The notes under the pieces are model-generated. The model searched no databases. It was not told the DNA's origin and saw nothing but the letters and a program-made list of their open reading frames with translations. A program made the position numbers and the translations under genes. From a virus, in IMG/VR virus record IMGVR_UViG_3300021962_000840, positions 1 to 20,125 of that record: 20,125 bases of DNA. One strand, 5' to 3'. Of the stretch, positions 4,204 through 15,822 are shown in pieces. Position 1 is the stretch's first letter, and each line of letters starts with the position of its first letter.

Positions 4204-4283
4204 TGTTGTGGTGTTCTTTTATACTTGCGGGGCCCTTTAGGCTGCTGTGGTGGGACAGGGTCTGTGGGTTGACGTAGTTTCAT
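4194..4283 (-). CDS. Possible 29-aa proline-rich peptide / coupling ORF before terL
   Basis: A short ORF fills the gap between the coiled-coil/TM gene and terL. Its ATG overlaps the preceding TGA (ATGA), and its TAA falls 10 bases inside terL in another frame. The peptide (MKLRQPTDPVPPQQPKGPRK plus nine residues) is basic and proline-rich. Neither it nor terL has a clear ribosome-binding site, so it may mainly pass ribosomes on to the terL start. Very short length makes this tentative. The perfect tiling with both neighbours is the only evidence that it is translated. Confidence 0.4.
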   Translation of the reverse strand: MKLRQPTDPVPPQQPKGPRKYKRTPQQCH

Positions 4284-4555
4284 TTTATATGTGTAATCAA
4301 ATAACCTAATAATCCTATTAGGCTTACGCAAACTGTGCCAGCAGTAGTGATAATTGCTGTATGACTAGAGTTATTGCGCTTTTCAATTAGTTCTTTTATG
4401 TCAGCAAAGCCCTTGCGGGTCTCATCTTTAAGTGCTGATACATCCTTATTAAGATCTTTAATTTGTTGTTCCACTTTGCTCATTCTCATATCTAATTGCT
4501 CATAGCGTAATTCGCATAAGTCAACATGGGTTTCTAGGCTTGTGCGTTCAGTCAT
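4280..4555 (-). CDS. Small coiled-coil protein with C-terminal membrane anchor (XhlA/holin-accessory-like)
   Basis: A 91-aa protein. Residues about 5-60 form a charged heptad-like coiled coil (MRMSKVEQQIKDLNKDVSALKDE...). Residues about 67-90 form one hydrophobic segment (AIITTAGTVCVSLIGLLGYLI), ending HIK. This layout, coiled coil then terminal TM, is that of XhlA-type hemolysin/holin-accessory proteins, and also of some Rz-like or tail-associated small proteins. TAGGAG lies in the last codons of the fibre gene, seven bases before the ATG. The position between fibre and terminase is compatible with a lysis role, but no endolysin is seen in the window. Function is inferred from architecture only. 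Confidence 0.6.
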   Translation of the reverse strand: MTERTSLETHVDLCELRYEQLDMRMSKVEQQIKDLNKDVSALKDETRKGFADIKELIEKRNNSSHTAIITTAGTVCVSLIGLLGYLITHIK

Positions 4556-4556
4556 T

Positions 4557-7427
4557 TTATGCTCCTATTGGTGTTACTGTTGTTACTAATGTTGCTGTGC
4601 CTGGACAGAATGCTGTTGAGGCATAGTTGGTGAATATCAATGCAGTATCATTAACAGCATAAGCAATCTCGTAATAATCAGTAGTGTTGGCACTATCAAT
4701 AACAAAGTTCCAACCCGCAATGGTTGAAGCACTTTTGGCCAATGTGACTCTACCAGTTGAGTTTGCAAGGTCCGCACCGTTCTTACGCAACCAAATGTAA
4801 GCAATGTGTTCTGCATTGGCACCGTTTTCAATCTGCACACTGAACTGCAAGTTATACATGCCTGGCGCACCCAATATGATACGACTTGTTGAACCAACGC
4901 TGGCTACATTGCTAAAGTCTGGTGTGCCAATAGGAAACACATAAGCAGTATTTGCCGCGGCTGCTGTAATTGTTGAATTATACTGCCACTGACCATAAAC
5001 ACGACTGTAGTTGATCTTGTTGCCAACTAGGGCTGTGCCAGCATAGTCAGTAAGTGTCAATGCATTGGCTTTTAGCGTGTTGTTTGTGGGTGTAAAGATA
5101 GCAACATCACTAACACTTGAACCACCAGGAGTGGCGCTGGCTGTTCCTGCTCTAATCCTTGTTTCAGTTATCTTACTTGAAATTATGTTTACACTAGAGA
5201 ATGTAGCACCAGTTTGATCACCATTGGCTAAATTTAAGAACCAAGCCGCATCACCTGTTGTAGAATAACCTGAGGTCATATCAGCAATGGTATAGATTGT
5301 GCCGTTTGAACCACCTGTTCTATAACGGAAACCAGTTCCATCATTATTGCTAGGAGCGGCTTGATCACTACGAATCAATTGAATGTTAAAACTTGGGCGA
5401 CTTTCAGTAGCACCAGGTGTGCCCACTGTTGTTCTACTTAAAGTGTGTAAGCCAGCACCTGTTATTGTAGTGCCAGTTGAAGCAAAAGTAGCGTAAGTTG
5501 TAGTGCCAGCGTTGTTCTTAACTGTTAGTGTATCTTGGTTGATGCTACCAGATGTAGCGCCAAATGACGCATAAGTTTGTGTATTGGCTGAGTTGGTGAT
5601 GTTTGTTGTGTTACCACCAAGTCGTGCCAGTGTATCAGTTAATAAGAAAGCCGCAACACCACCTGTGGTGTTTAAGAAATAATTACCACGCTGGAATTGA
5701 CCCATCATGGTTGGTGCGTTATAGTCACCAGCACCTTGCAAGAACTGTATTACGTGATTGCCGCTGGTTTGATAACGACTACGAATAGCATTTTGAAATG
5801 AAGTTGCTTGTGTGTTATCTGTGCCCACATATTCAAATGACAACCATGGACCGCCATCAACTGCACGAGCGGCATCCCCACGATTGCGGGAGATTGCTAA
5901 CACAGCGTTAGCGCCAGTGCCAGACGCTGTTCTACTAAAACGGTTTAGGTTAGCACTGTCAACTGTTGCAGAATTAACCCATGCTGTGCCATTGTAGTAA
6001 ATCATTTGGCCAGCGGTGCCTGTTGTGATAACAACATCACTCAGCGCATCAATGGAGGTGTTGTTGATTCTTGAAGTAACTCTAGCATCAGTGTAGTATA
6101 AGTTTGTTGAACCTTCTGACAAGTTGTCAGTAGTCTTAGTTGCTAATCTGCCATCAAAGTCAGTATTGCTACGAGCAGTAGTGTAATAAAGATTAGTTCC
6201 CTCAGCGAGATTCGTAGTGGACTTTGTAGCCAGTCTAGTGTCAAAGTCGCTATTAGCGCGACTAGTAGTATAATAGAGGTTAGTTCCTTCATTTAAATTC
6301 GTTGTAGTTTTAGTGGCTAACCAAGTGTCAGCAGTAGATGTAAAATCAGCTGTGGCCAACTTTGTGCCTAATGCTGTTGAGATAGTTGTGGCAAAGTTAG
6401 GATCATCACCTAATGCAGCCGCCAATTCATTCAATGTGTCTAAGGTAGCGGGAGCAGTATCTACTAGGGCCGCAATGCCAATAGCAACTCTAGCATCTGC
6501 TCTAGCATCAGTGTAGTATTTGTTGGTAGTGCCTTCAGCAAGACCATCTGTAGTGTGGTTGCTCAATGACGCAATGGTAGTGGGTGTAGTATAACTGATA
6601 ACACCTGTAATAGCACTATAACTCAAACTGCCACTTACTGAGATAGCAGAGCGTGCTAGGCCATTGGCAAAGTATTTGTTGGTAGTGCCTTGAGCCAAGT
6701 TGTCAGTTGTTTTGGTTGCTAGACGTGTGTCAAAAGCTGAGTTGACTCTAGCAGTTGTGTAGTATTGATTAGTGCCTTCGCTAATGTCAGATGTTGTTAA
6801 GACCACTGTGTTGGTTTTACCATTAACTGAGTCTACTGGGTAATCAATAGCACCAATGCCTGCGGCTACTCTAGCATCAGCACGGGCATCAGTGTAGTAT
6901 AAGTTGGTGCCTTCCCCTAACTCTGTTGTTGAAATTGGAATGTCATAATAAACAACACCATCACGGCTTTGCACTAACTTATCTGTGCTTGCACGATAAC
7001 CAATAAAGGCTGAGCCACTAGCACCCGCAGCCATGCTAACACCAGTTAAATCAGGTTTGCCTAAGCCATTAGTGCCCAACAACAAGTTATAGCCGTGAAA
7101 TGTGGGATTTTCAGCAAAGCTAGTAAAGGCACCAGGCGCTGTATTGTCGCCTTGCACAAATAGATTTGCAGTTGTAGTGCCAGGAACTGTGATGTCTGAA
7201 CGTGCTGTAATAGCACTTTGAACATCAACTACGCCTGTTAGTCCGTTAATACTTGCAACGCCAGCCGCTGTAGGACTTAGCACTACTCTTACTGCATCAT
7301 TAGTGGTTGACACTGTAATGTTAGTAGTGGCTGTGGTTTCACTTACTACAACACGGGGTGCGGTATCTGCCACGGTAACTCTGCTTACCGCTAAACTTTC
7401 ATCTACTGTTACTCGTGGAGTTGCCAT
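4557..7427 (-). CDS. Large repeat-containing tail fibre / receptor-binding structural protein
   Basis: A 956-aa protein rich in T, A, N, S and G. Residues 1-80 are beta-strand-like, with repeated VTV/VVV strings. Residues about 170-450 hold seven degenerate copies of an EGTNLYYTxAR-type unit, several followed by DxRLATKTT. This repeat is widespread in phage tail fibres and trimeric adhesin-like proteins. Residues about 320-356 carry a TLDTLNELAAALGDD module, also frequent in phage fibres. The C-terminal ~110 residues (YNLQFSVQIENG...AYIWLRKNG...) look like a C1q/TNF-type trimeric jelly-roll head, a likely receptor-binding tip. The ATG overlaps the stop of the upstream gene (TAATG). It probably works with the adjacent BppU-like protein. 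Confidence 0.85.
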   Translation of the reverse strand: MATPRVTVDESLAVSRVTVADTAPRVVVSETTATTNITVSTTNDAVRVVLSPTAAGVASINGLTGVVDVQSAITARSDITVPGTTTANLFVQGDNTAPGAFTSFAENPTFHGYNLLLGTNGLGKPDLTGVSMAAGASGSAFIGYRASTDKLVQSRDGVVYYDIPISTTELGEGTNLYYTDARADARVAAGIGAIDYPVDSVNGKTNTVVLTTSDISEGTNQYYTTARVNSAFDTRLATKTTDNLAQGTTNKYFANGLARSAISVSGSLSYSAITGVISYTTPTTIASLSNHTTDGLAEGTTNKYYTDARADARVAIGIAALVDTAPATLDTLNELAAALGDDPNFATTISTALGTKLATADFTSTADTWLATKTTTNLNEGTNLYYTTSRANSDFDTRLATKSTTNLAEGTNLYYTTARSNTDFDGRLATKTTDNLSEGSTNLYYTDARVTSRINNTSIDALSDVVITTGTAGQMIYYNGTAWVNSATVDSANLNRFSRTASGTGANAVLAISRNRGDAARAVDGGPWLSFEYVGTDNTQATSFQNAIRSRYQTSGNHVIQFLQGAGDYNAPTMMGQFQRGNYFLNTTGGVAAFLLTDTLARLGGNTTNITNSANTQTYASFGATSGSINQDTLTVKNNAGTTTYATFASTGTTITGAGLHTLSRTTVGTPGATESRPSFNIQLIRSDQAAPSNNDGTGFRYRTGGSNGTIYTIADMTSGYSTTGDAAWFLNLANGDQTGATFSSVNIISSKITETRIRAGTASATPGGSSVSDVAIFTPTNNTLKANALTLTDYAGTALVGNKINYSRVYGQWQYNSTITAAAANTAYVFPIGTPDFSNVASVGSTSRIILGAPGMYNLQFSVQIENGANAEHIAYIWLRKNGADLANSTGRVTLAKSASTIAGWNFVIDSANTTDYYEIAYAVNDTALIFTNYASTAFCPGTATLVTTVTPIGA

Positions 7428-9167: not shown

Positions 9168-9641
9168 CTACTTTTCTTCAAAGTAGTAATTTGTGGGATC
9201 AGTCTTTTTCCACTTTTCAAACTTTTTAACTGCATTACCCAGCAAGCCTGCTTCAGTTACATAACGAGCTGCCGCAAGTAAACTTGGGAACACACCATAA
9301 GGAGTGTGAAATGGTCTATCTCGTTTGGCAATGCCAGCCACGAGTGCGGCCTTCCACTTAGGATCGTTTGGCTTGGCACGATTGCTTGCGGCAACCTTTG
9401 CTTCGTGTTCTGCTGTCTTAACATACTTGCTCATCTTGGCACTGATCTTTGCTTGCACTAGTGGATCAGCATTTACTACTGCTTGGTAACTGTTGTCACG
9501 TTGCAAGCAACCTTGCTTTTGGTTTTGATAGTATTCTCGACTGCGAGTTTGAGCTATTGCTGTCATCCTAGCACTACGATCATCACTAAAGTGCTCATCC
9601 AATGCGTCATCAAACTTGTCTAGTTCTTTTAGTTTACCCAT
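9168..9641 (-). CDS. Tandem paralogue 3: FDDALD N-terminus plus NUMOD-like C-terminus
   Basis: A 157-aa lysine-rich protein. The N-terminus LKELDKFDDALDEHFSDDR (4-22) is nearly identical to those of the next two upstream genes. The middle (about 50-105) has short basic repeats, including NDPKWKAALVAGI. The C-terminus TPYGVFPSLLAAARYVTEAG (113-132), then W and NYYFEEK, resembles the small DNA-binding module (NUMOD1-like, 'TPYGxFPS...A...W....YYY') found at the ends of HNH and GIY-YIG homing endonucleases. No HNH or GIY-YIG catalytic motif is seen. Its start overlaps the end of the preceding gene by 8 bases. A role in sequence-specific DNA binding is inferred from the module only. Confidence 0.7.
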   Translation of the reverse strand: MGKLKELDKFDDALDEHFSDDRSARMTAIAQTRSREYYQNQKQGCLQRDNSYQAVVNADPLVQAKISAKMSKYVKTAEHEAKVAASNRAKPNDPKWKAALVAGIAKRDRPFHTPYGVFPSLLAAARYVTEAGLLGNAVKKFEKWKKTDPTNYYFEEK

Positions 9642-10083
9642 GAGTTGCCATCCAATCTAAATATTCTTCTCGTGTTGTATAGTAAAAGGTTTCAGTTTTA
9701 GAACTTTTCATCCACCATTGTATTGTGCCTACTGCTTTACCATAATAACGAGCAACATCAGTTAAACTTTCGTGAATTGTGTTTGCTTCTAAATCAACAA
9801 CAGGACGAGCTCTTGACATAATGTTGGCTAGTGTTTTTTCTTTCCATTGCAAGTCACTTGCAATCTTACGAGCAACATCAACACGATGATCGTAGTTGTC
9901 AGCAAATGCTTTACTAATAGCCTGGCCACGTTGTTTTTTTAATGCTGGATCTTTATGCACCTCTTTAACGCTGTTGGCAAGTGTTGCACTTTGCCGTAAT
10001 GCAACACTCATCCTAACTACACGATCATCGCTGAAGTGTTCATCCAATGCGTCATCAAACTGGTCTAAGTCACGAAGTTTCAT
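9634..10083 (-). CDS. Tandem paralogue 2: FDDALD N-terminus, diverged C-terminus
   Basis: A 149-aa protein. The N-terminus LRDLDQFDDALDEHFSDDR (3-21) is shared with its two neighbours. The C-terminus keeps the overall module (RPVV...HESLTDVARYYGKAVGTIQWW... ETFYYTTREEY) but has lost the TPYGxFPS core, reading RPVVDLEANTIHESLTD instead. The YGKAVGTIQWWM stretch looks like a helix-turn-helix recognition region. It has an ATGA overlap with the upstream gene and an 8-base overlap with the downstream one. It clearly arose by duplication, then diverged. Possible roles are DNA binding or adaptor to the AAA+ ATPase upstream; neither is shown. Confidence 0.7.
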   Translation of the reverse strand: MKLRDLDQFDDALDEHFSDDRVVRMSVALRQSATLANSVKEVHKDPALKKQRGQAISKAFADNYDHRVDVARKIASDLQWKEKTLANIMSRARPVVDLEANTIHESLTDVARYYGKAVGTIQWWMKSSKTETFYYTTREEYLDWMATHG

Positions 10084-10688
10084 AGTTCTTTCCCTGTTAG
10101 CATAATGTATTCTTCTTGTGTAATGTAATAGTAACCAGAATCTGGAATTTTAACATACTTGTTGATCTTGCCACCAATGTTAACAACTCCAGATGTTTTA
10201 ACTGCTACGATTCGTGATGGAAAGATACCATATGGAGTTACAACAGGTTTACTTTTAAGTAGTGTATTTTTTCTAGCATTCTTTTCATACCAATCACCTT
10301 GACCTCTTTTGTCAATGGCTTCTTGGTGCCTTTCGCGATGTTCAGCATCGTTAACTTTTGCCTTGTTGTTTTTAATTACCTTTTCAAGCCAAACCGGATC
10401 CTGGGCATTCTTTCTAACTGAAGCCAAATGCTTTTCTTTTGTTTCAGAGTTTTTCCATTTTTCCTGATTAGCAACTTTATTTTTTTCTAACCAAACTGGA
10501 TCATTCTTACGAATCTCTGTAGCAACAGCAACTTTATTTTTCCACTCATCTGTTTTAGTTGCTTCTCTAACAGCCGCAGTTCGTTTTTCATGATAACCTA
10601 CATTTGCTTCTCGTTTAATGACACCATCATTACTAAAATGCTTGTCAAGAGCATCATCAAACTTGTCTAAGTCTTTAAACTTGCCCAT
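10080..10688 (-). CDS. Tandem paralogue 1: FDDALD N-terminus, basic repeats, NUMOD-like C-terminus
   Basis: A 202-aa very lysine-rich protein. The N-terminus FKDLDKFDDALDKHFSND (4-21) is shared with the two genes downstream. The central part has repeated basic segments: NDPVWLEKNKVANQEKWK (62-79) and QDPVWLEKVIKNNKAK (96-111). These resemble the repeats of homing-endonuclease-related phage proteins. The C-terminus KPVVTPYGIFPSRIVAVKTSG (147-167), then GYYYITQEEY, is the NUMOD-like module. No nuclease motif is seen. AAGGAGG, overlapping the stop of the upstream AAA+ gene, gives a strong ribosome-binding site. It follows the ATPase directly, so the ATPase and this family are likely made together. 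Confidence 0.72.
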   Translation of the reverse strand: MGKFKDLDKFDDALDKHFSNDGVIKREANVGYHEKRTAAVREATKTDEWKNKVAVATEIRKNDPVWLEKNKVANQEKWKNSETKEKHLASVRKNAQDPVWLEKVIKNNKAKVNDAEHRERHQEAIDKRGQGDWYEKNARKNTLLKSKPVVTPYGIFPSRIVAVKTSGVVNIGGKINKYVKIPDSGYYYITQEEYIMLTGKEL

Positions 10689-10697
10689 GATGCCTCC

Positions 10698-11603
10698 TTA
10701 CAAAAAGTTCTGCTCAAACTCATCTGCAAATGAGTCTGGGTTGTTATACAACATGGCACCTGCTTCTTTGACAGTTCGCATACTGTTGGCACTCAAGTTG
10801 TTCCAGTTGCTATGAAAGATGTTCAGCAGTTGAAACATCTGCATAGGTGTAAGGGAAAAGCCATCGTCCTGGAATACGTTGTTACTTAACATAACACTGG
10901 CCATCCAGCCCCATGCTTCTTCTTCTGTAATGTCAAAACTGCGCCACTGCACACGGTCACGAACTGCGTGTTCATCAATGGCAGTTTTCTTTTTAGACAG
11001 TTCTTGCTTGGAGGCCAGTTTCTTGTTTGTAGTCACAACAAAGCGGCAGTTATCTAGTGGAATCTCAATACCAACACCCCCGTTGTCAAAGTGTCGCAAT
11101 GCGTTTACTAGATCCATGTCACCAATCTTTTCTGCTTTGGTAATCTGGCTACCTACGTTGACATCCCAACTGATAGCAGGCTCGTCGTTGTCCAGCACAA
11201 TCTTCATAAAGTCCAAGTGAGCCTTGTCACTGAAAAATGCATCGCAATCATCAATCCAAACTGGGATAGTTTTCTTAGAGCCAGACATCATGTAGCAGGC
11301 TTTGGCCATCTTCATAACAAATGCGTTTAGGCTGGCTTTGCCATGAAACTGCACATAGTCCAGTTTGTTGGCATGTGCAACGTTACGCACGGTAAATGTC
11401 TTACCTGCGCCAGGTGGGCTCCAAATAATGGTGTTGCGTTTGGTCTCTACCAAGTCTGGACGCAGGCCTAGACTTTGCTCAGCATACTTTTCAAGGCGGG
11501 CAGTAAGTTCAAGTCCGTTGAGGATAGCACTTTTTTGCTTGGCTGTGAGATAGCCACTATACTCGTTAATAAAGAACTCTAAGTTTGAGTTGGGTTTTTG
11601 CAT
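10698..11603 (-). CDS. AAA+ ATPase, copy 1
   Basis: A 301-aa AAA+ protein. Walker A is SPPGAGKT (62-69), Walker B is PVWIDDCD (114-121), sensor 1 is RFVVTTNK (187-194), and VRDR (214-217) is a likely arginine-finger or sensor segment. The C-terminus (about 225-300) is a helical lid. It is clearly related to the ATPase at 14895-15695: the HGKASLNAF / NGSMTAPQLF, IDD.D, TTNK / ISNK and VRDR blocks line up. It has AGGAG before its ATG and follows the 69-aa gene in one operon. The role may be DNA remodelling, helicase loading or packaging help. I cannot place it in a named family, but ATPase activity is well supported. Confidence 0.85.
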   Translation of the reverse strand: MQKPNSNLEFFINEYSGYLTAKQKSAILNGLELTARLEKYAEQSLGLRPDLVETKRNTIIWSPPGAGKTFTVRNVAHANKLDYVQFHGKASLNAFVMKMAKACYMMSGSKKTIPVWIDDCDAFFSDKAHLDFMKIVLDNDEPAISWDVNVGSQITKAEKIGDMDLVNALRHFDNGGVGIEIPLDNCRFVVTTNKKLASKQELSKKKTAIDEHAVRDRVQWRSFDITEEEAWGWMASVMLSNNVFQDDGFSLTPMQMFQLLNIFHSNWNNLSANSMRTVKEAGAMLYNNPDSFADEFEQNFL

Positions 11604-11618
11604 AGTTTACTCCTGTGT

Positions 11619-11828
11619 TTAGTTGCTGAGCAAGAAACTGCCAACTTGGGCAAAATCACGATCATTATCGTTCCAAGCAACTTCAACGCCTTCTGCTTGA
11701 ACTGAATAACGACCGTTGTTGTAAATCAACTCAAAGTCCATGCCTTCAAGACTAAAAGTGGCTGGTCCTGTATCGTTGAGCCAGTTGCGAACAAACTGGT
11801 CGAACTGGGGAATCAAATGTGCTGTCAT
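11619..11828 (-). CDS. Hypothetical 69-aa acidic protein, first gene of AAA+ operon 1
   Basis: Not recognised. It is a 69-aa acidic protein (MTAHLIPQFDQFVRNWLNDT...) with alternating beta-like segments (FELIYNNGRYSVQAEGVEVAW) and no TM or signal peptide. AGGAGT lies just before the ATG. The transcript is predicted to begin about 50 bases upstream, at a 5'-terminal hairpin. As the first gene under a consensus promoter with ATPase and NUMOD-like genes after it, it is likely expressed strongly. Confidence 0.65.
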   Translation of the reverse strand: MTAHLIPQFDQFVRNWLNDTGPATFSLEGMDFELIYNNGRYSVQAEGVEVAWNDNDRDFAQVGSFLLSN

Positions 11829-11853
11829 AAAATACTCCTACTGTGTTAAAAAA

Positions 11854-11880
11854 ACATAGCGTTGATCTGTTGCGCTATGT
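11854..11880 (-). promoter_or_regulatory. 5'-terminal mRNA hairpin of AAA+ operon 1
   Basis: ACATAGCG and CGCTATGT form a perfect 8-bp stem with an 11-base loop. The predicted transcript start (about 11878) falls in the first bases of the stem. Seven Ts follow on the minus strand, so it could also work as a leader attenuator. The other leader hairpins in the window occupy the same position with different stem sequences. Confidence 0.7.
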
Positions 11881-11884
11881 AGTT

Positions 11885-11952
11885 ATTATATGCGGATTGC
11901 CCCCTGCTGTCAACCTAAATCTGACAGAAAAAGTGTTGTATTTTTGCAACAC
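11885..11952 (-). promoter_or_regulatory. Consensus sigma70 promoter with upstream palindrome (AAA+ operon 1)
   Basis: -35 TTGACA (11908-11913), 17-bp spacer, -10 TATAAT (11885-11890): both hexamers match the consensus fully. The upstream inverted repeat GTGTTG...CAACAC (11933-11952) is a variant of the GTTGTAAAAATACAAC palindrome of the other modules and is centred near -64. Confidence 0.88.
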
Positions 11953-12680
11953 TAACACTTTCGTGGGAGTAATACTTTAGTTAAGTTTTGTTTTTGCTCA
12001 TGGCTATTCATTATCCCAATAAGTTTTTGTTGTTTTATGGGATTCTGCTATCGCATCTCCCATAAAAGATATACACAACTCGTTTATCAACTCGTTGTTT
12101 GTATATCTTTTACTTTGACATTTAACACGAAAACAGATAGTAGTAAGATGAATCTATTGTTTGTATTGTATTTTTTGATGACATAGATTTCCTTGATTTT
12201 AAGCCAAGACGGGACTATTTTAGCCCCGTCTTAGTCGATGTATTTCCCGTCATCATCGCCTGTCTGGATAATAGGTATTTTCCGTATATGCTACTGGGCT
12301 CTGTCCTTTCCCAACCTATAACGACATCATAACATTTCTGTTACTACCTTAAACCTCGTCCCTGGTGTTTAAGTTTTCGTAGCACGGTTTTTCGTATGCT
12401 AACATTCATACTATAATAATACATTGGGCATCATTGTTCTCACCCTCAAACTCACTTCCATTTTTCAGGATAGTTGGCACATATTACCAACGGGAGTGTC
12501 TTATTATGTTACGTGTGCGGTTTATGCCCCGCCTTTTCCACAGCCCTATTTTTAAACTGGCGGGCCAACCTTAAGTGTTAGATTTTTTGTTATTGTATTA
12601 GCCATAATGTAGTGCCTGTATTAGTTGATCATTTGTATATATGCCTTAGCAAACTGCGTGTTTAGCCAAAGCACATTTTG
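11953..12680. other. About 730-bp gene-free region rich in inverted repeats
   Basis: No ORF above about 21 codons is convincing here. Several inverted repeats are clear: TTTTATGGGA/TCCCATAAAA (12033-12067, 10 bp); AAAAGATATACA/TGTATATCTTTT (about 12064-12111, 12 bp); AAGACGGGGCTA/TAGTCCCGTCTT on the minus strand (12206-12232, 12 bp with one G-U, loop AAA); CTTAAAC/GTTTAAG (12348-12373); GTTGG/CCAAC (12473-12491); and CCCGCC/GGCGGG (12528-12564). In the strongest stem the G-U pair exists only in minus-strand RNA; the plus strand would have an A-C mismatch. That points to a minus-strand structured RNA or long 3' UTR. A replication origin is the alternative. A 20-aa ORF (12122-12184) has an AAGGA upstream but is weak. 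Confidence 0.6.
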
Positions 12681-13001
12681 TTATTCAAACAGTTCATCAA
12701 TACTGTTATGCATAGTGTCGCGATCAGTAACGATTACTGGCACACTATCAGCATCAATGATATTTTTGAATAACTTGCCATAGGTAAAACGGATTACCAA
12801 CTTGCGTGTTGGTTGGCTTAGAATGTGTGTCCACAAATCGTTATTTTTAAAGCCTTCAACAATGTAAGTTCTGTATTCTTGGCGGTCTAGGGTGCCACGC
12901 AAGATAATGTGTATTGTTGGCATGCCCAGTGTTTTGGGTGCTTTTGAATCAGCAGTCCATTGGCGGACAATAGTAAAGTCTTGGTTAAGATTGTATTTCA
13001 T
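12681..13001 (-). CDS. Hypothetical 106-aa protein with its own promoter
   Basis: Not recognised. It is a 106-aa mixed alpha/beta protein beginning MKYNLNQDFTIVRQWTADSK, with beta-rich stretches (PTIHIILRGTL, KLVIRFTYGKL, VPVIVTD) and an acidic end. No TM or signal peptide. AGGAG lies upstream of the ATG. It is transcribed alone from the promoter at 13046-13074, and the long gene-free region follows it. Confidence 0.65.
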   Translation of the reverse strand: MKYNLNQDFTIVRQWTADSKAPKTLGMPTIHIILRGTLDRQEYRTYIVEGFKNNDLWTHILSQPTRKLVIRFTYGKLFKNIIDADSVPVIVTDRDTMHNSIDELFE

Positions 13002-13017
13002 ATTTTACTCCTGTTGT

Positions 13018-13040
13018 AAGCAACTTGATCATCGTTGCTT
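13018..13040 (-). promoter_or_regulatory. 5'-terminal mRNA hairpin of the 106-aa gene
   Basis: AAGCAAC and GTTGCTT form a 7-bp stem at the predicted transcript start (about 13039), with loop GATGATCAA, just before the AGGAG site. It sits in the same position as the hairpins in the other leaders. Confidence 0.65.
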
Positions 13041-13045
13041 GTTAT

Positions 13046-13074
13046 ATTATACTTAGTTTTGTTATGCTTGTCAA
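13046..13074 (-). promoter_or_regulatory. Consensus sigma70 promoter of the 106-aa gene
   Basis: -35 TTGACA (13069-13074), 17-bp spacer, -10 TATAAT (13046-13051). The GTTGTAAAAATACAAC palindrome is absent upstream, unlike in most other modules. A weaker plus-strand promoter (TTGATC 13025-13030, 17 bp, TATACT 13048-13053) overlaps it. Confidence 0.85.
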
Positions 13075-13283
13075 GTGCTCAAATGGCGGGAAAAAGGCAA
13101 ATCTCCCAAGATTACACTGATAAATAAATGCATGTGCAAGATGCAATGTTTTGTGCAAGGTTTAATGGTTTCCTTTGTAAGTGCCTTTTACTCCTAAATC
13201 GCAGTGACGTCATAAACCACTGCAACATTAAACCGCAGGAACCCGCTTGTAGGACTGATCCCCTACTTTAAGGCGGGTTTTTT
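13060..13283 (+). ncRNA. Possible plus-strand non-coding RNA ending in a strong terminator
   Basis: This is the only plus-strand transcription unit I can suggest. It would start from TTGATC-17-TATACT (13025-13053) and end at the terminator at 13240-13283, giving about 220 nt. It carries one further hairpin (GCAGTG/CACTGC, 13201-13223) before the terminator. No plausible plus-strand ORF is present. The promoter match is moderate (4/6 and 5/6), so the terminator is better supported than the RNA itself. Confidence 0.35.
13240..13283 (+). terminator. Plus-strand rho-independent terminator with two-tier stem
   Basis: AACCCGC/GCGGGTT outer stem (7 bp) encloses an inner GTAGG/CCTAC stem, followed by six Ts on the plus strand. 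In the minus direction the sequence after the stem has no T-run, so it is oriented against the direction of all genes around it. It lies seven bases beyond the stop of the 86-aa gene. Confidence 0.75.
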
Positions 13284-13289
13284 GTTGGC

Positions 13290-13550
13290 TCAGTTAAACT
13301 TATCAGCAGTTGGAACCAGACCAATGTAGCACTTGTTTGTGATCACAGCGTTGGTCCACTCTTTGTCATTAGCCCAGCATTTTACTGTAAAGTCAATGTC
13401 CCCTGCCATTTGCACATCACGAGTATCTTGTTCACCATCAGCATTGATGCCAGTGATGGTAACTACATACCATTCTGTATTGGCCCAGCGTTCTAACCTA
13501 TCTTCTGGTGTTTCGTCTTCACCAAACAGTTCGTTTTCATCAAACATCAT
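13290..13550 (-). CDS. Hypothetical 86-aa acidic protein, last gene of AAA+ operon 2
   Basis: Not recognised. MMFDENELFGEDETPEDRLE gives a very acidic N-terminus, followed by a beta-rich part (WYVVTITGINADGEQDTRDVQ, IDFTVKCWANDKEW). Its start overlaps the end of the 77-aa gene by 11 bases. The tandem ATG ATG makes the exact start uncertain by one codon. The acidic head resembles those of DNA-mimic or adaptor proteins, but that is speculation. Confidence 0.62.
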   Translation of the reverse strand: MMFDENELFGEDETPEDRLERWANTEWYVVTITGINADGEQDTRDVQMAGDIDFTVKCWANDKEWTNAVITNKCYIGLVPTADKFN

Positions 13551-13773
13551 AACCTATCTTTCTTTTGCGTTCAAGTTCTTTGTTGTGCATGCGTTTTGCG
13601 CTCATTGGTCTTAGTTCAGCAATTTTAACAATTACCCAACAAACACCAACTACAGCCAGGACAGCAAGTGTTATTTGCCAAAAATACAATCCAACAGATA
13701 TCAGAAGTATAGGCCCCATCTCACGCCAGGCATTATCTACATCTGTTTTAAACTGCTCATATGAAGTTTTCAT
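13540..13773 (-). CDS. Small membrane protein, 77 aa
   Basis: MKTSYEQFKTDVDNAWREMG is followed by a long hydrophobic stretch (about residues 20-51: PILLISVGLYFWQITLAVLA...VCWVIVKI), enough for one long or two short TM helices, then a basic C-terminus (SAKRMHNKELERKRKIGYDV). By the positive-inside rule the C-terminus is cytoplasmic. The ATG at 13773 forms an ATGA overlap with the preceding 45-aa gene, which argues against the longer in-frame start at 13815. No function is known; a superinfection or membrane-targeting role is possible. Confidence 0.65.
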   Translation of the reverse strand: MKTSYEQFKTDVDNAWREMGPILLISVGLYFWQITLAVLAVVGVCWVIVKIAELRPMSAKRMHNKELERKRKIGYDV

Positions 13774-13907
13774 TTGGCAAGTTCCCGTTGTAGTTGAGCC
13801 AGTTCCTTGTGCCATAGTGCAACCAACTGTGCTTCTGGCGTATAAGGTTTAGGTGGTAACTTGACCAAGTAAGCCAATAGCATGGCTCGTTTTTGTTGCG
13901 GCGTCAT
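13770..13907 (-). CDS. Hypothetical 45-aa protein
   Basis: A short ORF (MTPQQKRAMLLAYLVKLPPK...) rich in Q, A, L and K, ending LWHKELAQLQRELAK, likely helical. AAGGAGG six bases before the ATG is an excellent ribosome-binding site. It overlaps both neighbours through ATGA junctions, strong evidence that it is translated. Function unknown. Confidence 0.65.
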   Translation of the reverse strand: MTPQQKRAMLLAYLVKLPPKPYTPEAQLVALWHKELAQLQRELAK

Positions 13908-14053
13908 TGAGCCTCCTTGACTTGGTCTAACAATCGTTGTGCTTCTGCTTTGACACGGTCACGCCACCGTTGTTGGCGTTCTTTGTTGCTTAAAGGGCCA
14001 CCTGGCTTTGGTGGGCGACCCATCTTCTTTGGTAACTTCTGTTCTGTGTTCAT
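13904..14053 (-). CDS. Small basic protein with AT-hook-like GRPPKPGG motif, 49 aa
   Basis: MNTEQKLPKKMGRPPKPGGP, then LSNKERQQRWRDRVKAEAQR. The GRPPKP core is AT-hook-like (minor-groove binding), and 'LSNKERQQRWRDR' resembles the small phage and plasmid proteins with a basic 'AERQRRYRER' helix. AAAGGA precedes the ATG. It has an ATGA overlap with the downstream gene. DNA or RNA binding is a reasonable inference from charge and motif; no partner is evident. Confidence 0.65.
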   Translation of the reverse strand: MNTEQKLPKKMGRPPKPGGPLSNKERQQRWRDRVKAEAQRLLDQVKEAQ

Positions 14054-14065
14054 TGTATTGTTCCT

Positions 14066-14260
14066 TTATGCTGTATACATCCAAGTTGACGGGATAGGTC
14101 CTCGTCCTTGTGTAATCCTAATCCAACCACCTGCTCGTAGATAGTTGTATGTGTTATAGCCACCCCAACTGCTATCTTGCAGTAGTGTGTTTCTAACATA
14201 CGGGCCTGTGTAAACACGACCCTGCACTGGTTGCACTACTGGTGTAATAACTTGTTTCAT
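14066..14260 (-). CDS. Hypothetical 64-aa glycine/tyrosine-rich protein
   Basis: Not recognised. The sequence (MKQVITPVVQPVQGRVYTGP...SSWGGYNTYNYLRAGGWIR...) is rich in G, Y, V and W, with no TM or signal peptide. Its ATG overlaps the stop of the 53-aa gene (ATGA), which supports translation. Composition suggests an extended or beta structure. Confidence 0.58.
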   Translation of the reverse strand: MKQVITPVVQPVQGRVYTGPYVRNTLLQDSSWGGYNTYNYLRAGGWIRITQGRGPIPSTWMYTA

Positions 14261-14418
14261 TCTGCTTCTCCTGTAATAATGTCTGTGAGTTCTTGTAGTT
14301 GATCAATAGTCAACTGATCTAAGTTGGCAAATGTGCCTGGGTCTGCTGAGTTGTGCAAGTTCTCAATCAGTTGGGCACGTTGCTCAAGTTGCGTGACTGT
14401 CCATGTAATACCGTTCAT
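14257..14418 (-). CDS. Hypothetical 53-aa helical acidic protein
   Basis: MNGITWTVTQLEQRAQLIEN and a helical, leucine- and aspartate-rich remainder (LDQLTIDQLQELTDIITGEAE). A longer in-frame reading reaches to 14538 but overlaps the NUMOD3 gene by 119 bases. The ATG at 14418 has AAAGGAGAG just upstream and begins right after the NUMOD3 stop, so I use it. Function unknown. Confidence 0.65.
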   Translation of the reverse strand: MNGITWTVTQLEQRAQLIENLHNSADPGTFANLDQLTIDQLQELTDIITGEAE

Positions 14419-14419
14419 C

Positions 14420-14893
14420 TTACTCTCCTTTTTTAACATAATAATAGTGTTCAGGGAACTTTCTAAGCCAGGTTCTAACAGTGCTAGCGTCACGACCGCT
14501 TGCTTCTGCAATAGCACGAATACTTGGGAACAAGCCATACGGTGTCATAACTGGCTTAGACTTTGACGCACTAAAGTTGGCACGAGACTCAGCACTCCAC
14601 TTAGGCTTAGGCTTGCCTTTAAGGGCCGCACTTAGCTTGGCACGAGACTCTGCTGATATCGTTCTGCCTTTATTGGCGGCACCTATCTTAGCACGAGTCT
14701 CTGCTGAATGCTTTTTGCCATAAGTGGGGCTCAAAACTCCAGAGCGAGTTGCTGACATCAAAGCACGAGTCTCGGCTGAATGCTTTTTGCCTAACATAGT
14801 GCCTGAAAGGCCTGTGCACCAAACAACATACTCTTTCTCAACAGTCTCAAATGTAGCCTTAGAAGGTGCGGTAACTTTAGTAAAAAATGTCAT
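14420..14893 (-). CDS. NUMOD3-repeat DNA-binding-like protein without nuclease domain
   Basis: A 157-aa basic protein. After a ~34-residue N-terminus come four NUMOD3-type units: GKKHSAETRALMSATRSG (35-52), GKKHSAETRAKIGAANKG (59-76), ISAESRAKLSAALKG (about 79-93) and KWSAESRANFSASKSK (98-113). Then follows the C-terminal module PVMTPYGLFPSIRAIAEASG (115-134) with WLRKFPEHYYYVKKGE. NUMOD3 repeats and this end module are DNA-contacting parts of GIY-YIG and HNH homing endonucleases. The N-terminus is far too short for a GIY-YIG domain and has no HNH signature. It is either a remnant or a domesticated DNA-binding protein. AAGGAG overlapping the AAA+ stop couples it to the ATPase. Confidence 0.82.
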   Translation of the reverse strand: MTFFTKVTAPSKATFETVEKEYVVWCTGLSGTMLGKKHSAETRALMSATRSGVLSPTYGKKHSAETRAKIGAANKGRTISAESRAKLSAALKGKPKPKWSAESRANFSASKSKPVMTPYGLFPSIRAIAEASGRDASTVRTWLRKFPEHYYYVKKGE

Positions 14894-14894
14894 G

Positions 14895-15695
14895 TTATAC
14901 TCCTTGGTCCATCATAACCAGGTTACGCCAGTTCTTCTTATCAATCTTATACATGTCCATGCATGTAATAAGAGTGCGGAATGATAAGCCAGGAAAGTGC
15001 TTGACTTCTTTGCTAACGAACTTGAGAATCTCTTCTTTATGCACGGCGTCTAACTTAGACTCGTTAAAGCAACGAATCATACCATGCTTGTAAAGAATGT
15101 TCATAGCAACTGCGGTCCACGCTGGGCTAAGTCCTGCTGGCACATACATGCAACGATCACGCACTGGCTTGATGCTTTGGCGTTGGCGTGGAGTCATGTC
15201 AGCAATGTTCATAACCTTGTTGCTGATCAAAATAACACGACCTTCGCATGTAAAGCGTGTAGGCACGTTGGCTATACGCAAAGCCGCTGAGTTGGTCTTG
15301 GCATAGTCTACGTTCTTGCTAGTGCTGTCAATAGCGGCTTTGAGAATGTCGCACATCTCAGTATCTTCTAACACCACGTCAGTGTCATCAATAACCAAGA
15401 TCTGGTTAGGCTTGCGAGCATGCAGATACAACTTGATGAACAACTGCGGTGCTGTCATAGAGCCGTTAATAACATGATACTCAGCGTTCAGTAAGTCCAA
15501 GCTATGCTTGACAACTTCTGTCTTGCCGCCACCGTTGGGACCGTTAACAATAAGACCGCGCTTGCCTGTAATGCCTCGGGCAAATGCCTGCACTAACTTG
15601 GCAATGCTGTCGTAGTGTTCTTGAATAATCTGCTCTTGAACAGCTGGCTTGAAAGCACTGGGATCGCTGTTAAGTTTTTCTTGCAAGTATGACAT
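14895..15695 (-). CDS. AAA+ ATPase, copy 2
   Basis: A 266-aa AAA+ protein. Walker A is GPNGGGKT (52-59), Walker B is ILVIDDTD (99-106), sensor 1 is RVILISNK (153-160), and VRDR (178-181) is an arginine-finger-like motif. The C-terminal third is a helical lid. It shares its core layout with the ATPase at 10698-11603, so the two are paralogues or one is a divergent import. AGGAG lies five bases from the ATG. It is the first gene of an eight-gene operon (15695-13290). Coupling to the NUMOD3 protein mirrors copy 1 with its NUMOD-like genes. Possible roles: DNA remodelling, helicase loading, target-site selection. The exact family is not known to me. Confidence 0.85.
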   Translation of the reverse strand: MSYLQEKLNSDPSAFKPAVQEQIIQEHYDSIAKLVQAFARGITGKRGLIVNGPNGGGKTEVVKHSLDLLNAEYHVINGSMTAPQLFIKLYLHARKPNQILVIDDTDVVLEDTEMCDILKAAIDSTSKNVDYAKTNSAALRIANVPTRFTCEGRVILISNKVMNIADMTPRQRQSIKPVRDRCMYVPAGLSPAWTAVAMNILYKHGMIRCFNESKLDAVHKEEILKFVSKEVKHFPGLSFRTLITCMDMYKIDKKNWRNLVMMDQGV

Positions 15696-15721: not shown

Positions 15722-15744
15722 ATAGCGTTGTTTTGTTGCGCTAT
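15722..15744 (-). promoter_or_regulatory. 5'-terminal mRNA hairpin of AAA+ operon 2
   Basis: ATAGCG and CGCTAT form a 6-bp stem (11-base loop) whose first base is the predicted +1. The stem and most of the loop are nearly identical to those of AAA+ operon 1 (11854-11880), suggesting the two leaders share a recent origin. Confidence 0.68.
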
Positions 15745-15750
15745 GTGTTT

Positions 15751-15822
15751 ATTATACGACTACTGTAACGAAATGTCAAGTGTTTTTGTTATGTTTTTTG
15801 TTGTATTTTTACAACGGTAACT
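15751..15822 (-). promoter_or_regulatory. Promoter module of AAA+ operon 2
   Basis: -35 TTGACA (15774-15779), 17 bp, -10 TATAAT (15751-15756). The upstream 23-bp element at 15800-15822 contains the perfect palindrome GTTGTAAAAATACAAC next to AGTTACCG. It is identical to the elements at 17412, 17852 and 18327. The palindrome is centred near -63.5. Confidence 0.9.

Follow-up and report, generated by a model that had tools for sequence, protein, structure and literature searches.

Why should a phage place, behind each of two ATPase genes, a protein that resembles the DNA-reading half of a homing endonuclease? The question is raised by a 20,125-base fragment of a tailed phage (IMG/VR record IMGVR_UViG_3300021962_000840), in which a portal protein and a large terminase are recognised from sequence. 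The whole stretch is called the window here, and positions without a prefix refer to it. Region 9168–15695 carries two minus-strand operons, each with an AAA+ ATPase gene (AAA1 or AAA2) that is followed directly by one or more partner genes. We find that this arrangement recurs in distant phages, where ATPase and partner can be lost together and the partner can be exchanged beside an unchanged ATPase. The coordinates and gene order that an earlier note, made from the sequence alone, gave for the two operons are correct, and the genes are as follows.

14895–15695, minus strand: AAA1, a predicted AAA+ ATPase of 266 residues (PF00004 above cut-off; PHROG 1250; BLASTP match to T4 NrdC.10)
14420–14893, minus strand: AAA1 partner, 157 residues, with leader MTFFTxVTA, NUMOD3 repeats, a C-terminal TPYG/helix-turn-helix (HTH) module and no nuclease (NUMOD3, 6.6e-17; partial TIGR01453 match)
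10698–11603, minus strand: AAA2, a predicted AAA+ ATPase of 301 residues, same family as AAA1 (PF00004; PHROG 1250; structure model)
10080–10688, minus strand: AAA2 partner a, 202 residues, with leader KDLDKFDDALDKHFSND, helical repeats and a C-terminal TPYG/HTH module (profile comparison, structure model)
9634–10083, minus strand: AAA2 partner b, 149 residues, with leader RDLDQFDDALDEHFSDD and a degenerate C-terminal module
9168–9641, minus strand: AAA2 partner c, 157 residues, with leader KELDKFDDALDEHFSDD and a TPYGVFPS module

The genes are tightly packed, with a gap of 1 nt between AAA1 and its partner and of 9 nt between AAA2 and partner a, and overlaps of 4 nt between partners a and b and 8 nt between b and c.

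Two NrdC.10-family ATPases and their partners

Both ATPases score above the PF00004 (AAA) cut-off of 21.2 bits (AAA1, 26.5 bits; AAA2, 23.0 bits) and match PHROG 1250 (AAA1, E 1.2e-33 over profile positions 81–322 of 327; AAA2, E 4.6e-11), a family that T4 NrdC.10 itself matches with E 3.9e-163. BLASTP against T4 NrdC.10 gives E 2e-14 for AAA1 and 4e-7 for AAA2 as single-comparison values, and profile–profile comparison connects AAA2 with AAA1 (E 9.9e-11) and with the wider family (E 1.3e-19). The motifs are intact, with no variation among 38 relatives at P63, G65, G67 and K68 of Walker A, at D118, D119 and D121 of the IDDxD Walker B motif, at R217 of the VRDR motif (arginine finger) or at S274 and R276 of the C-terminal SxR. 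These comparisons place AAA1 and AAA2, as AAA+ proteins, together in PHROG 1250, the family of T4 NrdC.10; the two are related, as the earlier note had proposed from their matching motif order, and do not fall into separate families.

T4 NrdC.10 has been noted as carrying an AAA motif, with no function given (PMC1524935). It shares with the window ATPases PHROG 1250, Walker A, DDxD, the arginine finger and the C-terminal SxR, but the T4-like members examined keep an N-terminal region of ~80 residues and have no such partner gene. This region is absent from the window ATPases and from the AAA2 proteins of the jumbo phages described below; because several further PHROG 1250 members also lack it, it is typical of the family and does not define membership. 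A structure model of AAA2 has high confidence (predicted local distance difference test, pLDDT, 90.4) and an AAA+ fold. Its nearest folds are Rubisco activase (Z 12.1), dynein AAA modules, HslU, ClpX, NorQ and clamp loaders, with clamp loaders and Cdc6/ORC at Z 10.3–11.1, and no single family stands out; DnaC, IstB, MuB and TnsC are not among the listed best structural matches (listed Z 10–12). Our scans of sequence collections, which relied on short exact peptides and may overlook distant homologues, found no relatives of AAA2 in cellular genomes.

The AAA1 partner has a significant NUMOD3 match (Pfam, 6.6e-17) and aligns to the group I intron endonuclease model TIGR01453 at positions 92–212 of 215. 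The nuclease (GIY-YIG) of this endonuclease family is its N-terminal part, so an alignment that starts at position 92 indicates that the AAA1 partner is without it; the partners as a group match intron endonuclease models only beyond positions ~81–92 of 215. The three AAA2 paralogues match no Pfam family; a profile–profile comparison connects them with the NUMOD3 partner (E 5.1e-13). The model of AAA2 partner a consists of a leader helix, about seven helices in a row and a C-terminal strand-strand-helix-helix, and its top PDB match, a weak one (E 1.6), is the I-TevI DNA-binding domain (1i3j). The claim that the partners are NUMOD-type proteins therefore stands for 14420–14893, but the sequences of the three-gene family bear only a remote likeness to NUMOD; likewise, the C-terminal TPYGxFPS motif ascribed to all of them is clear in 10080–10688, 9168–9641 and 14420–14893 but degenerate in 9634–10083.

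No nuclease Pfam domain was found in any partner, and no GIY-YIG was found in the window or in the genomes that we label L003 and L004, in agreement with the remark in the earlier note that no nuclease motif is visible. The NUMOD3 and I-TevI-type matches are to the C-terminal part of the models only, which upholds its suggestion of an origin from homing endonucleases and supports the view that each partner corresponds to the DNA-binding region of such an enzyme, its nuclease missing. I-TevI consists of an N-terminal nuclease joined by a tether to the DNA-binding region responsible for site choice (PMC2988022). The partners resemble I-TevI and other GIY-YIG homing endonucleases in having NUMOD3 repeats and, at the C-terminus, a DNA-binding module of the I-TevI type, but they carry a short leader in place of the nuclease, have an ATPase neighbour and are not associated with an intron. 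A group I intron was considered and rejected, since no intron or other Rfam match was found in the window and four pair-bearing loci searched.

Recurrence, joint loss and exchange of the pair

The pairing is not private to the window. Two close relatives from other metagenomes, L005 and L004, share the gene order but differ in the partner bodies: both ATPases are present in L005, each directly trailed by its own partner or partners, and L004 has AAA2 with one partner. In the jumbo phages FLC6 and FLC8, a homologue 38% identical to AAA2, gp129 in FLC8, is followed by gp128, which in FLC8 contains NUMOD3 and I-TevI_DNA-bd above the Pfam cut-offs and no nuclease. Three contigs of 172–315 kb (L103–L105) encode an AAA2 homologue that is 70–71% identical to that of FLC8 and 38% identical to AAA2 of the window, followed by a NUMOD3 protein. 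NUMOD3 is over its cut-off in 14420–14893 and in the L005 and FLC8 partners, and I-TevI_DNA-bd in those of FLC6, FLC8 and L105.

Searches of whole records show how specific the association is. In all seven genomes with a NUMOD3 match over the cut-off, the sole such protein is encoded immediately downstream of the ATPase; in the L004 genome, the only I-TevI-type match is the AAA2 partner; and a reverse scan with a profile of the jumbo-phage partner returned ATPase-linked loci only. Partner frames are open in eight genomes and are always downstream of the ATPase on the same strand. Chance adjacency was rejected at ~1e-5 in two lineages that had not been used to choose the finding, a value that rests on one NUMOD3-over-cut-off protein among ~237 and ~300 genes (the larger number is an estimate based on the length of the contig).

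The NrdC.10 family as a whole behaves differently. The TPYG motif was found in none of ~94 other NrdC.10-family loci, NUMOD3 matches in 50 whole records have an ATPase neighbour only in the close group, and no common downstream neighbour emerged in the wider family (24 clusters among 50 loci). From the TPYG and NUMOD3 negatives in distant loci, we reject a NUMOD partner as a general property of the family; with ~90 distant NrdC.10 loci lacking one, the arrangement is lineage-specific. The pairing of ATPase and NUMOD-type protein is restricted, since most wider members of the family have no NUMOD neighbour. In the literature that we searched, we found no description of such a system; the earlier note knew of none either. 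Both halves are of kinds already known; what we did not find in that literature is their pairing as a conserved module with an exchangeable reader.

Homing endonuclease genes also occur in some phages with an ATPase of this family. A homing endonuclease gene lies beside or near the NrdC.10 gene of Erwinia phage Hallingskeid (L011:4949–6801), and mobD is two genes from NrdC.10 in T4 (L137:1344–4209); endonucleases in such positions are a possible starting point for a pairing of this kind. As a pair in its own right, the Hallingskeid endonuclease with the ATPase beside it was rejected, because the former is an ordinary homing endonuclease. True GIY-YIG proteins are present elsewhere in the genome of FLC6 and in that of L105. 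In one jumbo phage, a single frame that combines a GIY-YIG domain with an I-TevI-type DNA-binding domain (G042:C1:21605–22144) apparently encodes a complete homing endonuclease; it lies ~7 kb from the ATPase–partner pair, and the partner may derive from it or be related to it.

Around the locus, FLC8 is ~77–84% identical to its relative SURPRISE13, in which one unrelated gene replaces exactly the ATPase and its partner. Homology ends 9 bases ahead of the ATPase start and is regained at the partner stop codon. ATPase and partner therefore behave as a unit and were lost jointly in SURPRISE13. Comparison of FLC6 with FLC8 isolates the partner instead: the median tile identity of the two genomes is 98.8%, the ATPase is 100% and the neighbouring DnaB 99.8% identical, and the partner is 34% identical, with a tile identity of 0% in its interval and the divergence confined to about the partner reading frame. 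The partner is thus exchangeable and has been swapped between FLC6 and FLC8 beside an identical ATPase. Other strongly divergent intervals between these genomes include FLC8 148001–148750, 184501–186000 and 200001–200750. Directly upstream of the pair in FLC8 are the small genes gp130–gp135 (L006:3687–5923), which encode seemingly paralogous winged-helix proteins.

Between L104 and L105, synonymous divergence is lower in the partner (0.41) than in the ATPase (1.19), indicating different recombination histories for the two genes, and the higher identity runs on past the partner. The ratio of nonsynonymous to synonymous substitution rates is 0.27 for the partner in this comparison and 0.07–0.12 for the ATPase, values which indicate that the partner reading frame is under constraint and the ATPase strongly so.

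Conservation within the partners is uneven. Six AAA2 partners have in common a leader of 17 residues (consensus K/R-D-LD-x-FD-x-x-LDEHFSDD) with a mean identity of 69%, as against 27% for the bodies. Most codon differences within the leader are synonymous, which indicates that it is the amino-acid sequence of the leader that is conserved. Among the AAA1 partners, a different leader (60%) and the C-terminus (57%) are shared, with 28% identity in the middle.

What the pair may do

The explanation that we favour, though with slightly more doubt than belief, is a two-component module directed to DNA sites, in which a constant NrdC.10-family AAA+ motor is steered by a cognate, swappable partner. 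The partner would be a domesticated homing-endonuclease DNA-binding region whose nuclease has been replaced by the short conserved leader, and whose DNA-reading body would comprise NUMOD3-type helical repeats and an I-TevI-type C-terminal helix-turn-helix. The leader would dock on the ATPase, the repeats and helix-turn-helix would choose the DNA site, and ATP hydrolysis would remodel or load proteins at that site, with complexes of replication or transcription the most plausible candidates. Swapping or duplicating the partner body (there are one to three per ATPase) would re-aim an unchanged motor. The DnaB gene adjoining the pair in FLC6 and FLC8 and a family B DNA polymerase beside it in L104 (identified by reading of its sequence) are hints, from gene neighbourhood, toward replication.

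Several points weigh against this reading. The pairing occurs in only three lineages, and that of AAA1 in two related genomes; no distant NrdC.10 locus examined has a NUMOD neighbour, so the ATPase is not generally in need of one; and from clade to clade (AAA1, small-phage AAA2 and jumbo-phage AAA2) the leaders show hardly any likeness. The partner model is of medium confidence (pLDDT 69), with the leader its weakest part, and ATPase–partner contact, DNA binding and its target, ATPase activity and the biological output are all putative, as are the roles in DNA remodelling, target selection or helicase loading that the earlier note suggested.

AAA+ motors with a sequence-specific DNA-binding partner are known from systems of the TnsC/MuB/IstB and DnaC types. 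The likeness to these is one of logic only, an AAA+ motor with a DNA-targeting partner, and no transposase or integrase was seen beside the ATPase–partner pair. CapR of PLE satellites likewise reuses a homing-type DNA-binding region without the nuclease (PMC10448857), but it is of the zinc-finger type, not the NUMOD3/I-TevI type, and is a repressor without an ATPase partner. If the favoured explanation is correct, the domestication of homing endonucleases extends from repressors to the steering of ATPases. A whole class of previously unknown re-aimable machines, in which an ATPase-docking leader replaces the homing nuclease, readers deliver an NrdC.10-type motor and a change of reader changes the aim, is a somewhat more doubtful proposition. 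NrdC.10-family ATPases occur in hundreds of sequenced phages and have no known function, and a dedicated DNA-reading partner would provide a handle on their substrate. FLC6 and FLC8, which are culturable and combine the same ATPase with different readers, constitute a natural experiment.

The main competing explanation concerns the starts of the two operons, which are laid out alike.

15751–15779, minus strand: AAA1 operon promoter, TTGACA-17-TATAAT
15722–15744, minus strand: AAA1 operon 5' hairpin ATAGCGCAACAAAACAACGCTAT
11885–11913, minus strand: AAA2 operon promoter, TTGACA-17-TATAAT
11856–11878, minus strand: AAA2 operon 5' hairpin ATAGCGCAACAGATCAACGCTAT

In both, the promoter is followed by an identical 23-nt hairpin, ATAGCGCAACANNNCAACGCTAT (chance expectation 0), and the window contains no further copy of this dyad. 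Its position just downstream of the −10 box at the two ATPase operons, and only there, is suggestive of an operator, in which case the partner would be a domesticated homing-type transcriptional repressor, acting on its own ATPase operon (or on other genes of phage or host) without physical contact with the ATPase. I-TevI autorepresses through its own DNA-binding domain (PMC2988022), the satellite-encoded CapR is a homing-endonuclease DNA-binding domain (PMC10448857), and co-evolution with an operator would account for the partner swaps. We nevertheless regard a repressor as unlikely. The dyad is missing from the fetched loci of the paired relatives, including L005 and L004, and although their binders differ, FLC6 and FLC8 have nearly identical DNA over the ~90 bases that precede the ATPase and between the ATPase and partner genes. 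Moreover, a repressor usually precedes or stands apart from the gene that it controls, whereas the partner always follows the ATPase, and repression alone leaves the conserved leader and the joint loss unexplained.

The conserved leader resembles a short N-terminal tag, and the ATPase might instead be an unfoldase or disassembly factor that engages the leader of its client, the partner, and removes this tightly bound homing-type protein from DNA in the way that ClpX acts on MuA. This idea accounts equally well for the genetic pairing, and the best folds for the AAA2 model are protein remodellers (Rubisco activase, HslU, ClpX, NorQ), but with clamp loaders and Cdc6/ORC close behind in score, the fold does not decide between these roles. 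The unfoldase idea also gives no reason for the existence of the partner, and we consider it improbable. Still less credence attaches to the partners being free-standing homing endonucleases that decay at a favoured insertion site beside ATPase genes. The endonucleases near NrdC.10 in Hallingskeid and T4 and the exchange of partner alleles between phages would fit such decay; the open frames in eight genomes with constant placement and strand, the absence of the nuclease from every partner, the leader conserved through synonymous change, the purifying selection on the partner and its loss together with the ATPase would not. The swap of alleles between near-identical phages is also reminiscent of specificity determinants under conflict, which raises the prospect of a weapon against co-infecting relatives, in which partner variants would direct the ATPase to the DNA of rival phages or satellites, for instance to replication origins. 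The nuclease Odn targets satellite origins through a RepA-type domain (PMC8263062, PMC10448857), and in FLC6 and FLC8 the pair lies beside DnaB. A weapon of this kind has no known target, however, and PADLOC gave only homing-endonuclease models and weak matches, with no match to a defence system; we think it very unlikely.

Other features of the window and related loci

The likeness of the two operon starts, described in the earlier note as nearly identical promoters and 5' hairpins, is borne out by the identical 23-nt hairpin, but the layout is in part one that this phage uses elsewhere too. A third operon (12681–13051, minus strand) has the same promoter style and a different 5' hairpin, AAGCAAC...GTTGCTT; with another stem in the same arrangement, only the shared stem sequence is specific to the ATPase operons. 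Early transcripts of this phage seem generally to carry a hairpin that starts just past the −10 box.

Between the AAA2 operon promoter and AAA2 lies one further reading frame.

11619–11828, minus strand: open reading frame of 69 codons, with no family in Pfam or PHROG searches

From the AAA2 operon promoter to the next gene (11900–12640), ~700 bases contain no plausible gene. In L005, positions 4220–5635 encode a protein of 471 residues that matches no Pfam or PHROG family and contains a polymerase-like 'VHDGF' motif. The window also holds a head scaffolding match and weak small-terminase matches.

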